Assembly (NCBI GenBank): GCA_021371955.1
Contig: JAJFVD010000013.1
Span: 124,001 to 188,000 of the forward strand
Length of the DNA: 64,000 bases
Direction: 5' to 3'
DNA from: Bacteroidales bacterium
GTDB taxonomy: Bacteria > Bacteroidota > Bacteroidia > Bacteroidales > UBA932
The position numbers and the translations under genes are program-made. Below, in pieces: positions 57,810 to 61,842 of this stretch (its first letter is position 1; the number at the start of each line of letters is the position of its first letter). The notes beneath the pieces were generated by a model. It was not told the DNA's origin. It did no database searches and saw nothing but the letters and a program-made list of their open reading frames with translations.

Positions 57810-57922
57810 TTTTCCCCAGGGGAAATTTGTTTATTCACTCATAATCTGCACATTAGCACAATTAAGACAAAAGCATTATTTGATTGATAATCTTTCACTT
57901 AACAAATTTCCCCTGGGGAAAA
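57810..57922. repeat. Palindrome-ended 113-bp repeat, copy A (REP-like)
   Basis: Perfect 22-bp terminal inverted repeats (57810-57831 and 57901-57922; TTTTCCCCAGGGGAAATTTGTT), each containing a CCCCAGGGG palindrome, enclose 69 bp. The same element recurs at 58779-58891 in the same orientation. The two copies flank a RAYT gene. Confidence 0.9.
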
Positions 57923-57959: not shown

Positions 57960-58715
57960 TTACGCCTTCCTTACAAACTCATAGCTAACATGAAGCATAT
58001 TTGCAATTTGTATATACGACGCTCTTGTGTTTGATTTGAGGTTATTAGCTAATAAGCGAAGTTCTTGTCTTGACAGCTCTTTAAGAAATCTTCCGGCCAA
58101 CTGTTTTTGAAGTACTTTATTTAAGTCTGCATACGAAATCAAAATCCGGATTTCTTTTTCCTCTTTTATATCTCCGTCTGTAAAATCAGACCTTTTAAGT
58201 TCGGCTAAAAATTTACTTTCTGATTCAAACAGAAGTTTTACAAATTCAGTGTCTACTTTTATTTTACTGCTACTCCATTTCTCTTCATTGAAGTATAATT
58301 CAACAGAAGACCATCTATACTCAATGGCATTTTTTACAATTCCTGCTTCCACAGGATTTAACAAAATGTAAATCAGGCTATTTCTAAATTTCTGCATGCT
58401 ATTCTTTGGTGCACTCGAATAAGGACTTGAAAATAAATTACCGCTGCTTTTATGCTTCCTGTTGTACCATTTTACATAACAAACCAGAATAGATGATACA
58501 AAAGCAGAAAGGTTATTTGATTTCGCCAGTAAATGAACATGATTATCCATTAAAACATATGCAAATAGTTGAACATTATGCTTTAACGCACTCTTCTCAA
58601 TATGCGAATAAAAGACATTCCTGTCTTCATCGTCATAAAAAATTACAAATCTGGAATTTCCGCGTAAGTAGATGTGGTAGATACCCACTTCTGTGATTAT
58701 TCTCCTCTCTCTCAT
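57960..58715 (-). CDS. REP-associated tyrosine transposase (RAYT, Y1_Tnp/HUH family)
   Basis: 251 residues. HUH motif His59-Val60-His61 in MDNHVHLLAKS, and a likely nucleophile Tyr80 or Tyr84 in CYVKWYNRKHKSSGNLF, the RAYT/Y1 transposase arrangement. The C-terminal ~60 residues resemble the DnaA-like/helix-turn-helix tail that many Bacteroidota homologues carry. A GGAGGGAG ribosome-binding site precedes the ATG on the minus strand. It sits between two copies of a 113-bp palindrome-ended repeat. By analogy it probably cuts and rejoins such single-stranded repeats (domesticated REP propagation). Confidence 0.88.
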   Translation of the reverse strand: MRERRIITEVGIYHIYLRGNSRFVIFYDDEDRNVFYSHIEKSALKHNVQLFAYVLMDNHVHLLAKSNNLSAFVSSILVCYVKWYNRKHKSSGNLFSSPYSSAPKNSMQKFRNSLIYILLNPVEAGIVKNAIEYRWSSVELYFNEEKWSSSKIKVDTEFVKLLFESESKFLAELKRSDFTDGDIKEEKEIRILISYADLNKVLQKQLAGRFLKELSRQELRLLANNLKSNTRASYIQIANMLHVSYEFVRKA

Positions 58716-59007: not shown

Positions 59008-59015
59008 TATCTTTG
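59008..59015 (+). promoter_or_regulatory. -7 promoter box before the FMN riboswitch
   Basis: TATCTTTG at 59008-59015 matches the TAnnTTTG box. A weaker TTTC lies about 19 bp upstream in the -33 position. Transcription would start at about 59022, exactly at the riboswitch 5' end. Confidence 0.6.
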
Positions 59016-59022
59016 CGGTCGA

Positions 59023-59133
59023 AATATCTTCAGGGCAGGGTGTAATTCCCGATCGGCGGTAAAGTCCGCGAGCCGTAAATGGCAGAACCGTTTAAACTAC
59101 GGTACCGACAGTAAAGTCTGGAAGGAAGAAGAA
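59023..59133 (+). promoter_or_regulatory. FMN riboswitch (RFN element)
   Basis: All conserved blocks of the RFN element are present: CTTCAGGGCAGGGTG, ATTCCCGATCGGCGGT, AGTCCGCGAGCC, GGCAGAACCG, GGTACCGACAGT and AAGTCTGGAAGGAAGAAG. Stems form as expected: AGGG/TCCC, CGGCGG/CCGCGAGCCG, ACCG/CGGT and GAC/GTC. The closing strand, GGAAGGAAGAAG, is also the ribosome-binding site of the gene starting at 59137, so bound FMN would hide the site and repress translation. Confidence 0.93.
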
Positions 59134-59136
59134 TTT

Positions 59137-61842
59137 ATGAAAGCGACTACAATAAATCTGTATCGTAGGGTTTTAGCTATTGGCATTGCCCTACTGCTCC
59201 TGGGAGGAGCCTCAGCCAAAGGTGCTGCAAATCAATCAATTATTATTGATCATTTTTACGATGTAACTGAACCAAACAGTTATATTGGTAATTCTTTGGA
59301 TCATGGTCATACCGCTTATGACCTGACCAGCTATGCTGAAACAGTTTCGCATCAAAATTGCGATGTAACCGAAAGCGCTTATGAAAGCTCATATCCAGAT
59401 TCTCTAAATCGAAATGCACTGGTAGATTCGGTAAACCGCAATGTTATGGCGGAGGAGATGAATCGTAATGCTTCACAAGCGGAAACGCCGGGTCAGGCGG
59501 AGGAGTCGGGCCAGAGAGTTAAGACTGCCGGTGGAACAAGCCAGCAGGACACGACTATCAGTCTTAATCTTAAGGAGATTGTTCTGTCGGCATCTTTTGT
59601 GAATGAGAGGAGGACACCGCTAAGGCTCAAGAGTGTGGGGAAGGGAGAGATTGAGGGTAAGGCGATTGGGAAAACTTATCCGGAACTGGTGAGGGATATC
59701 CCCGGTGTATATGCGACAAGCGAGTCGGGCAGCTATGGAGATGCAAAAATTAATATTCGCGGGTTTAAGCAGGAAAACATTTCGGTGATGCTTAACGGGA
59801 TTCCCATTTCGGGTCTTGTTACGGGAAACATGTTCTGGAACAACTGGCTCGGGCTTGCCGATGCAACTCATTCGATTCAGGTGCAGAAAGGAATCGGAGC
59901 TTCGATGTTGTCAGATAATTCCGTTGGCGGGACAATCAACATAATCACAACTACACCTCAGCAAAATTCATCTATATCTGCAGGTATGTTTTATACCGAT
60001 TACGGGCTGGGAAAGGCTTTTGTAAACATGCACAGCGGCTTGCTTAAAGGAGGCTGGGCGTTTTCGCTCATGGCCTCATATGCAGGCGGAAGCGGATATG
60101 TAGATGGTTCCGATGTCAATTCCTGGGCATATCTGATGAACATCAATAAGAAGATAAACAACCACCATAGTTTGTTATTTACCATATTAGGCTCTCCCGA
60201 AAGACACGAGCAGCGCTCTGCAAGGCTTAGCAATGCCGAAGTGGAACAGTACGGCCTCCGCTACAATAAAAACTGGGGATACCGTACAAACACGCAAACA
60301 GGAGAAAGAGAGCCGTTTAACCTGAGTGAAAACTTTTATCACAAGCCTTATTTCACTCTTCACCACTTCTACACACCGGACAACAATACCGAAATTGCAA
60401 ACACGGCATATCTTTCCATTGGAAACGGAGGCGGAAGATGGTCCGAATCCAAAGGCAAGAGAATCATCGACTTTCAGAAAGACGGACAAATTGAATGGGA
60501 TGCCGTAACAGCTGCAAACCAGTCCATCCCCGGCACAATCGAAAACGAAGCCGGCTCTGCAAAAAACATACTTTCCGACTACCTTGCCGGGCACACCCAG
60601 GCAGGCATAAAAAGCAACATCAGCCACAAACTAAGCGATAAATTCACATTAACCGAAGGGATACATTATCAGTTTTACTCCACCTGGGAAAAAGAAAAAA
60701 TTACCGACATGCTTGGCGGAAACTACTGGTACGAAGATTATTCAAAATCTTCGCTTGCAGGCCTTGCCGGACGTAACCCAATCAAACACGCCGGCGATTA
60801 CATCCGCACAGACAACGGGAAAATAATAAATCACCTGACCCTGTACACAATGCTAAACTACAGCAGCGACAAGTGGGAGGTTCGCGCAGGCGTATCGGCA
60901 ATGGGAAGTACAAACAAAAGATGGGACAAATACAATTACACATCGGATATATTTAGTCCTTCTGCATCTGCACTCGGATATAGTGTAAAAGGAGGCGCTC
61001 TTTATAAGTTAACCCCTCAGAGTTCAGTTTATCTGAACGCTGCAGCTTATAGTCGCCTCCCCTATTCCGATGTTTTCTTCTCAAGCGGCAACAACGAAAT
61101 AACCAATGATGTAAAAAACGAGCGAAACCTGCTTTCCGAGCTGGGATATCGTTTTCTTTTCCAGAGAGGTTCCATTGAGGCAACAGCCTATGTGGCATAC
61201 TGGAAAAACAAGACAATAATGTCCGACCCGTACAAGCAGTTAGACAACTCGGCAAACAGATACATGATTCAGGGGCTTGATGCACTTCACTCAGGGCTGG
61301 AAATTGATGCCGAATACAGGCCTACCGGATGGCTCAACCTAAAGGGATACGCCTCTTTTGCAAAGTGGAACTGGAAAAATGACGTTTCTGCAAAGATTTA
61401 CGACAACTACTCAGGACTTGAAATTGGCAGTGTAAATGTATACAGCGACGGGCTCGTTGTTGGAGATGCGCCTCAGACACAAGTTGCTCTCTTTGCCGAT
61501 GTAAAACTATATAAAGAGCTCCGCTTTTCTGCCGATTGGAGGTATAATGCCAGGCTTTTTGCCGATTTTGATCCCGTAAGCAGACAAAATTCACAGGACA
61601 GAGCAAGTTCTCTTCAGCTGCCAAACTATCAGCTTATAAATATGAGTCTCTCCTGGAGGGAAAACTGGGGGAAATGGAGCAGCACAATTTTTATAAATGT
61701 AAACAATGCGCTCAACACAAAATATATAGAAAGAGGGAAAGACGGTGCAGATCATACACTTCAGAGCTTTCGCGGATTCTGGGGATTTGGCACAAATGCA
61801 AATATCGGGGTGAGGATTGATATGAAATCATTTGGATTCTAA
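59137..61842 (+). CDS. TonB-dependent outer-membrane receptor under FMN riboswitch control (putative flavin importer)
   Basis: 901 residues from the ATG at 59137 (MKATTINLYRRVLAIGIALL signal peptide). An unusual spacer (about 30-130) with three N-R-N units precedes the TonB-box-like LKEIVLSAS. The plug follows (VYATSESGSYGDAKINIRG; MLNGIPISGL; SVGGTINIITTT), then a barrel ending GVRIDMKSFGF. The usual carboxypeptidase-regulatory domain of Bacteroidota receptors is absent. Regulation by FMN implies that it imports riboflavin or a related flavin compound; substrate is inferred from the riboswitch, not seen. The in-frame ATG at 58831 would put the riboswitch inside the coding region and is rejected. 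An MlaEF-type gene pair follows 21 bp later. Confidence 0.92.
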   Translation: MKATTINLYRRVLAIGIALLLLGGASAKGAANQSIIIDHFYDVTEPNSYIGNSLDHGHTAYDLTSYAETVSHQNCDVTESAYESSYPDSLNRNALVDSVNRNVMAEEMNRNASQAETPGQAEESGQRVKTAGGTSQQDTTISLNLKEIVLSASFVNERRTPLRLKSVGKGEIEGKAIGKTYPELVRDIPGVYATSESGSYGDAKINIRGFKQENISVMLNGIPISGLVTGNMFWNNWLGLADATHSIQVQKGIGASMLSDNSVGGTINIITTTPQQNSSISAGMFYTDYGLGKAFVNMHSGLLKGGWAFSLMASYAGGSGYVDGSDVNSWAYLMNINKKINNHHSLLFTILGSPERHEQRSARLSNAEVEQYGLRYNKNWGYRTNTQTGEREPFNLSENFYHKPYFTLHHFYTPDNNTEIANTAYLSIGNGGGRWSESKGKRIIDFQKDGQIEWDAVTAANQSIPGTIENEAGSAKNILSDYLAGHTQAGIKSNISHKLSDKFTLTEGIHYQFYSTWEKEKITDMLGGNYWYEDYSKSSLAGLAGRNPIKHAGDYIRTDNGKIINHLTLYTMLNYSSDKWEVRAGVSAMGSTNKRWDKYNYTSDIFSPSASALGYSVKGGALYKLTPQSSVYLNAAAYSRLPYSDVFFSSGNNEITNDVKNERNLLSELGYRFLFQRGSIEATAYVAYWKNKTIMSDPYKQLDNSANRYMIQGLDALHSGLEIDAEYRPTGWLNLKGYASFAKWNWKNDVSAKIYDNYSGLEIGSVNVYSDGLVVGDAPQTQVALFADVKLYKELRFSADWRYNARLFADFDPVSRQNSQDRASSLQLPNYQLINMSLSWRENWGKWSSTIFINVNNALNTKYIERGKDGADHTLQSFRGFWGFGTNANIGVRIDMKSFGF

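Follow-up and report, generated by a model that had tools for sequence, protein, structure and literature searches.

An FMN riboswitch precedes a TonB-dependent receptor, a candidate outer-membrane flavin importer, in Bacteroidales lacking riboflavin synthesis genes

The window, the whole stretch of 64,000 nucleotides that was analysed, is from contig C9 of a Bacteroidales genome (2.5 Mb, 98% complete), and all unprefixed coordinates are window positions. At the locus studied here, an FMN riboswitch is followed directly by a gene for a TonB-dependent receptor (Table 1). A search with Rfam matched the full FMN riboswitch model (RF00050, positions 1–138) with 111.2 bits (E 4.7e-25) against a gathering score of 66.2, and this was the only Rfam match within the window. 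The sequence-only reading had recognised an RFN element at 59023–59133, which was correct to within a few bases. In a genome-wide scan the same copy was the single FMN riboswitch of the genome. The aptamer scored 129.2 bits with a covariance model of the lineage (R1). Across the aptamers of 54 relatives, 97.8% of pair cells were standard and both sides had changed at 12 pairs; the covariation was far above shuffled and slid controls, and 0 of 500 shuffles reached the observed level. A longer open reading frame from TTG 58831 crosses the riboswitch, and was therefore taken as mechanical only.

The motif TATCTTTG ends six bases upstream of the aptamer. The motif TANNTTTG was present no more than 45 nt upstream of the aptamer at 61 of 72 relatives' loci, compared with a background of 2%. 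TATCTTTG is a predicted Bacteroidota-type −7 promoter box, and transcription would start at about the 5′ end of the aptamer, as had been proposed from the sequence alone. The 5′ strand of P1 pairs with GAAGA at 59128–59132, the purine run GGAAGGAAGAAG occupies 59120–59131, and the gap between P1 and the ATG is four bases long. The start codon also comes straight after P1 in genus members L095–L108 and L143.

Table 1. Features of the riboswitch–receptor locus (window positions)
Feature	Position	Strand	Basis
Predicted −7 promoter box TATCTTTG	59008..59015	+	Enrichment of TANNTTTG upstream of relatives' aptamers
FMN riboswitch aptamer (RF00050, RFN element)	59022..59137	+	Rfam, model R1, covariation
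P1 helix, 5′ strand (UCUUC)	59027..59031	+	Covariance-model match, P1 pairing
P1 3′ strand region, GGAAGGAAGAAG and bases to the ATG; proposed translation-initiation site	59120..59136	+	Inferred
TonB-dependent outer-membrane receptor, 901 aa, candidate flavin importer (ATG 59137, stop 61842)	59137..61842	+	Open reading frame, Plug domain, model, Foldseek
Approximate signal peptide	59137..59226	+	Helix at residues 2–23; boundary inferred
Plug domain (residues 158–266)	59608..59934	+	PF07715, 44 bits, E 3.6e-11

An AlphaFold model of receptor residues 131–901, built with 60 relatives, had a pLDDT of 86.7. The Plug domain, together with the large β-barrel of this model, identifies the protein as a TonB-dependent outer-membrane receptor. 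Foldseek gave the PQQ importer PqqU/YncD (PDB 9c4o, 6v81) as the closest solved fold (E 1.3e-41, TM 0.69/0.79), and also returned Fiu, FecA and FhuA. PQQ is a flat redox cofactor, like a flavin, but PqqU/YncD and the window receptor are 15% identical. FecA and FhuA scored nearly equal to PqqU, and therefore no substrate was deduced from the fold. A profile search for the substrate returned general TonB receptors only, and a PDB sequence search with the single protein gave no match. Within the same genome the closest homologues were 27% and 23% identical, and there was no other close member. BtuB, the outer-membrane receptor for vitamin B12, is repressed by a cobalamin riboswitch. It resembles the window locus in being a vitamin receptor under a riboswitch, and TonB-B12 (TIGR01779) was the best NCBIfam match of the window receptor. 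However, the BtuB riboswitch responds to B12 rather than to FMN, and with 34.2 bits against an equivalog cut-off of 599.7 the window receptor is not a member of the BtuB-type family.

The riboswitch and the receptor are found together well beyond the window. In its genus an FMN site was present in 22 of 25 genomes, with the receptor orthologue after it wherever the contig permitted. A scan of named genomes yielded 80 orthologous receptor loci, all in Bacteroidota, including Bacteroidales bacterium CF (G010, a closed genome), Candidatus Cryptobacteroides, Candidatus Egerieousia, Lentimicrobium and termite-type MAGs. A model made from the lineage's aptamers placed an aptamer just upstream of the receptor at 73 of the 80. 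Five of the other seven loci end at a contig edge and could not be assessed, which leaves 73 of 75 assessable loci; L121 and L140 were the only ones with upstream sequence in which this model found no aptamer. The sequence-only reading had looked to orthologues for the same upstream element, and they carry the FMN element rather than another regulator. The directly FMN-controlled receptors formed a single clade (support 100) with G086 as the sole exception, and the pairing persisted across receptors that are 37–98% identical. Residues E213, E355, H510, Y535, R546, Y643, F878 and W882 are specific to the clade. Receptor homologues of 30–36% identity without a riboswitch do not belong to the clade, and nearly all come from prototrophs; they were therefore treated as paralogues.

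The distribution of the pairing was compared with that of riboflavin synthesis genes in 393 Bacteroidales genomes of at least 80% completeness, 88 of which contained a total of 89 FMN sites. Receptor-adjacent sites numbered 38, came from 15 families, and lay 0–583 nt before the aligned part of the receptor. Lumazine synthase (RibH) was absent from all 38 genomes with such a site. By contrast, 50 of the 51 other FMN sites were in RibH-positive genomes, typically before the rib operon. The 49 RibH-positive sites away from a receptor represented 21 families, with ribH 3.2–4.3 kb away for 33 of them among the matches listed, and in five checked relatives with an FMN riboswitch elsewhere the target was ribD, ribBA or ribB. 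Four families hold both arrangements, receptor-adjacent without RibH and elsewhere with RibH. Fisher's test of pairing against RibH state gave p 4e-30 with shared ancestry ignored; the 15 families and the four within-family contrasts are a better measure. A further 39 of the 393 genomes were RibH-negative and had no pairing, and auxotrophy therefore does not require it.

One prototroph, G242, had an FMN site before a receptor, and it carried a second FMN site at its rib operon. Its receptor copy is broken, being frameshifted and internally deleted (L202:5746-9858); further downstream in this interval come a paralogue that is intact and a gene for a nucleotide pyrophosphatase. Pairing of the riboswitch with an intact receptor thus occurs only in genomes without RibH. 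In the RibH-negative genome G178 (L203:5160-5919) an FMN riboswitch has a terminator-like hairpin and T run behind it, and next comes the first part of a gene for an outer-membrane protein (CarboxypepD_reg). The contig end cuts this gene, which shows 38% resemblance to the one downstream of the L167 receptor.

RibH, RibB and RibE were not found in the window genome. RibH was likewise not found in any of the 25 genus genomes or in four further relatives with the pairing, and neither RibB nor RibE was found in any of 10 sampled receptor genomes, G010 included (controls positive in 14/14 and 11/14). RibF, however, is retained: the window genome encodes a 304-aa protein with riboflavin kinase and FAD-synthetase domains (PF01687, PF06574), and RibF was found in 60 of 61 genomes. 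Judged by these genes, the window organism is a riboflavin auxotroph. The restriction of the pairing to genomes that have lost RibH, the absence of RibB and RibE, and the retention of RibF support the earlier suggestion of an outer-membrane flavin importer, and strongly imply flavin uptake. On these genomic grounds the locus very probably encodes an FMN-riboswitch-controlled, TonB-dependent transporter through which a riboflavin auxotroph takes up riboflavin or a close flavin. The distribution supports the view that in auxotrophs a flavin importer, presumably energised through TonB and shut off by FMN, would replace biosynthesis. Riboflavin is the favoured cargo over FMN and FAD, because an auxotroph needs riboflavin and RibF is present to process it.

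How FMN might act on the receptor gene appears to differ between lineages. In the window's genus no terminator was found, and a search of the leaders for an alternative pairing gave nothing above shuffles. As the ATG lies right after P1, hiding of the start site by P1 is the simplest switch, and the off state would rest on this occlusion alone. When cellular FMN is low, P1 would be unstable, the start site open and the receptor made; imported riboflavin would be converted to FMN and FAD by RibF, and FMN bound to the aptamer would then stabilise P1 and close the start site. A point against such a switch is that Shine-Dalgarno use is weak in Bacteroidota. The sequence-only reading had proposed a translational switch in which a P1 strand doubles as the Shine-Dalgarno sequence, and a translational switch at P1 fits the window's genus but does not extend to distant relatives. 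Distant relatives, Lentimicrobium-like ones among them, often have an intrinsic terminator downstream of the aptamer. Its 5′ arm (for example GCCCTGAAG) is complementary to the aptamer 5′ strand (CTTCAGGGC), and in many such cases the match beats 99 of 100 shuffles. Cryptobacteroides-like relatives have a hairpin starting TGCCTTGAA, and also a T run, ahead of the ATG. The same receptor therefore seems to be kept under FMN control by different platforms.

A flavin brought into the periplasm would also need a route across the inner membrane. No second FMN site in the genome marked an inner-membrane riboflavin importer, and the genes around the receptor differ from relative to relative. MlaE/MlaF genes begin 22 nt after the window receptor; they were rejected as operon partners, an opposite-strand Kdo-transferase gene intervening in most genus members. 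In G030 the receptor gene is followed at a distance of 24 nt by a nucleoside symporter gene, which was rejected as a general partner: homologues were found in only 28 of 61 genomes, prototrophs included, and in few members of the window's genus. PnuX was set aside likewise, PnuC-family genes being present in auxotrophs and prototrophs alike. The window genome has three PnuC-family genes, none under an FMN riboswitch: one with an OMthi-like receptor, one inside the suf operon and one after a gene for a 960-aa protein. The suf operon has the order sufB-pnu-sufC-sufD (C5, L236:5012-8918), and the same order and sizes are found in G030 (L238:4627-8506). The 960-aa protein has no Pfam or NCBIfam match, and its gene has a four-base overlap with the start of the PnuC-family gene (L237:3200-6780, C5). 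As a lead only, the suf-operon PnuC-family gene is a candidate inner-membrane flavin partner.

In about a dozen order-level relatives the FMN-controlled receptor gene is followed, on the same strand, by genes for a second outer-membrane receptor and a PF01663 protein. Examples of a receptor with such a Type I phosphodiesterase/nucleotide pyrophosphatase are L167:12504-17160, L214:8658-13225 and L207:3209-7271. The downstream pyrophosphatase of these distant relatives is a hint that FAD may be processed there.

The riboflavin transporters known from bacteria lie in the inner membrane, and it is usually porins that are assumed to let the vitamin through the outer one. RibU, PnuX and RibXY are riboflavin transporters controlled by FMN riboswitches, and RibXY of Roseiflexus makes up for a missing rib operon (PMC3766115, PMC4418817). 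They resemble the window locus in that an FMN riboswitch governs vitamin B2 uptake, but they are inner-membrane carriers. TonB receptors are not mentioned in published surveys of FMN regulons and of transporters for riboflavin (PMC3766115, PMC4418817), one of which lists Bacteroidaceae as having no FMN riboswitch (PMC3766115). A closer parallel is OMthi (BT2390) of Bacteroides thetaiotaomicron, a TonB-dependent thiamine receptor under a TPP riboswitch (PMC5613172). Both loci are from Bacteroidales, and in both a TonB-dependent receptor gene comes directly after a riboswitch for a vitamin. They differ in riboswitch class and ligand, the window locus has no inner-membrane transporter gene in the operon, and B. 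thetaiotaomicron also makes its own thiamine. The OMthi-like receptor of the window genome is about 23% identical to the window receptor; it belongs to a set of TPP riboswitch, TonB receptor and PnuT-like transporter (C6, L235:3127-6046) that corresponds to the known thiamine system.

We found no report of an FMN riboswitch on an outer-membrane receptor in the open-access papers that were searched, and the pairing appears to be previously undescribed. It seems likely that these receptors are the first family of flavin transporters to be recognised among TonB-dependent outer-membrane proteins, and that in Bacteroidales the FMN riboswitch has repeatedly switched target, with the rib operon under its control in prototrophs and the receptor in auxotrophs, so that its target predicts whether vitamin B2 is made or imported. 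If so, vitamin B2 can merit energised capture in widespread uncultured Bacteroidales of gut, soil and sediment, among them Cryptobacteroides, Egerieousia, Lentimicrobium and others. A riboswitch-marked receptor would be a simple way to recognise B2 auxotrophy from a genome, and the pairing offers a testable link in community vitamin exchange.

The identity of the cargo leaves room for another reading. TonB receptors usually carry cargo too large for porins, and riboflavin, at 376 Da, is small. The receptor might instead take up FMN, FAD or a flavin-carrying compound, to be trimmed in the periplasm before uptake across the inner membrane; the second outer-membrane receptor and PF01663 gene downstream in about a dozen relatives would suit FAD hydrolysis. 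On the other hand, no pyrophosphatase gene was found close to the receptor in members of the window's genus, the gaps from receptor to next gene are about 145–370 nt, and FAD is only a putative substrate of the pyrophosphatase. We regard this reading as possible but less probable than import of riboflavin itself. It is improbable that the receptor imports some other nutrient, such as an iron chelate or haem, with flavin status as a signal only. Siderophore carriers are common among receptors of this fold, and several bacteria show links between the regulation of iron and that of riboflavin (PMC6041382). Nevertheless, in 38 of 38 genomes from 15 families the pairing goes with loss of riboflavin synthesis, and it shifts with that loss inside families; for an iron receptor there would be no reason for this.

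Two further explanations concern the riboswitch and the assemblies rather than the cargo. As the FMN riboswitch controls the rib operon in prototrophic relatives, the window copy could be a non-regulating relic of a lost rib operon that came by chance to lie before a receptor. This is very unlikely, given the retained covariation and promoter box, the expression platforms that differ by lineage, and the wide range of receptor identity over which the pairing is kept. Most of the genomes are draft MAGs, and gene absence could in principle reflect incomplete assembly. It is scarcely credible, however, that the auxotrophy is such an artefact: RibH, RibB and RibE are jointly missing in 10 of 10 genomes and RibH in all 25 of the genus, the single-contig genomes G010 and G011 are included, and RibF is still found in all but one of the 61 genomes. 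A riboswitch-controlled flavin importer remains the preferred reading.

The region upstream of the locus also contains repeats. The palindrome TTTCCCC[A/T]GGGGAAA occurs four times between 57811 and 58890 (at 57811, 57907, 58780 and 58876), where none is expected by chance. The copies form two pairs with a spacing of 96 nt, on either side of an IS200-like Y1 transposase gene (57960–58715, − strand). Palindromes and transposase look like a set of REP elements with its RAYT. A Y1 transposase gene is found in the equivalent place in the relative L078.
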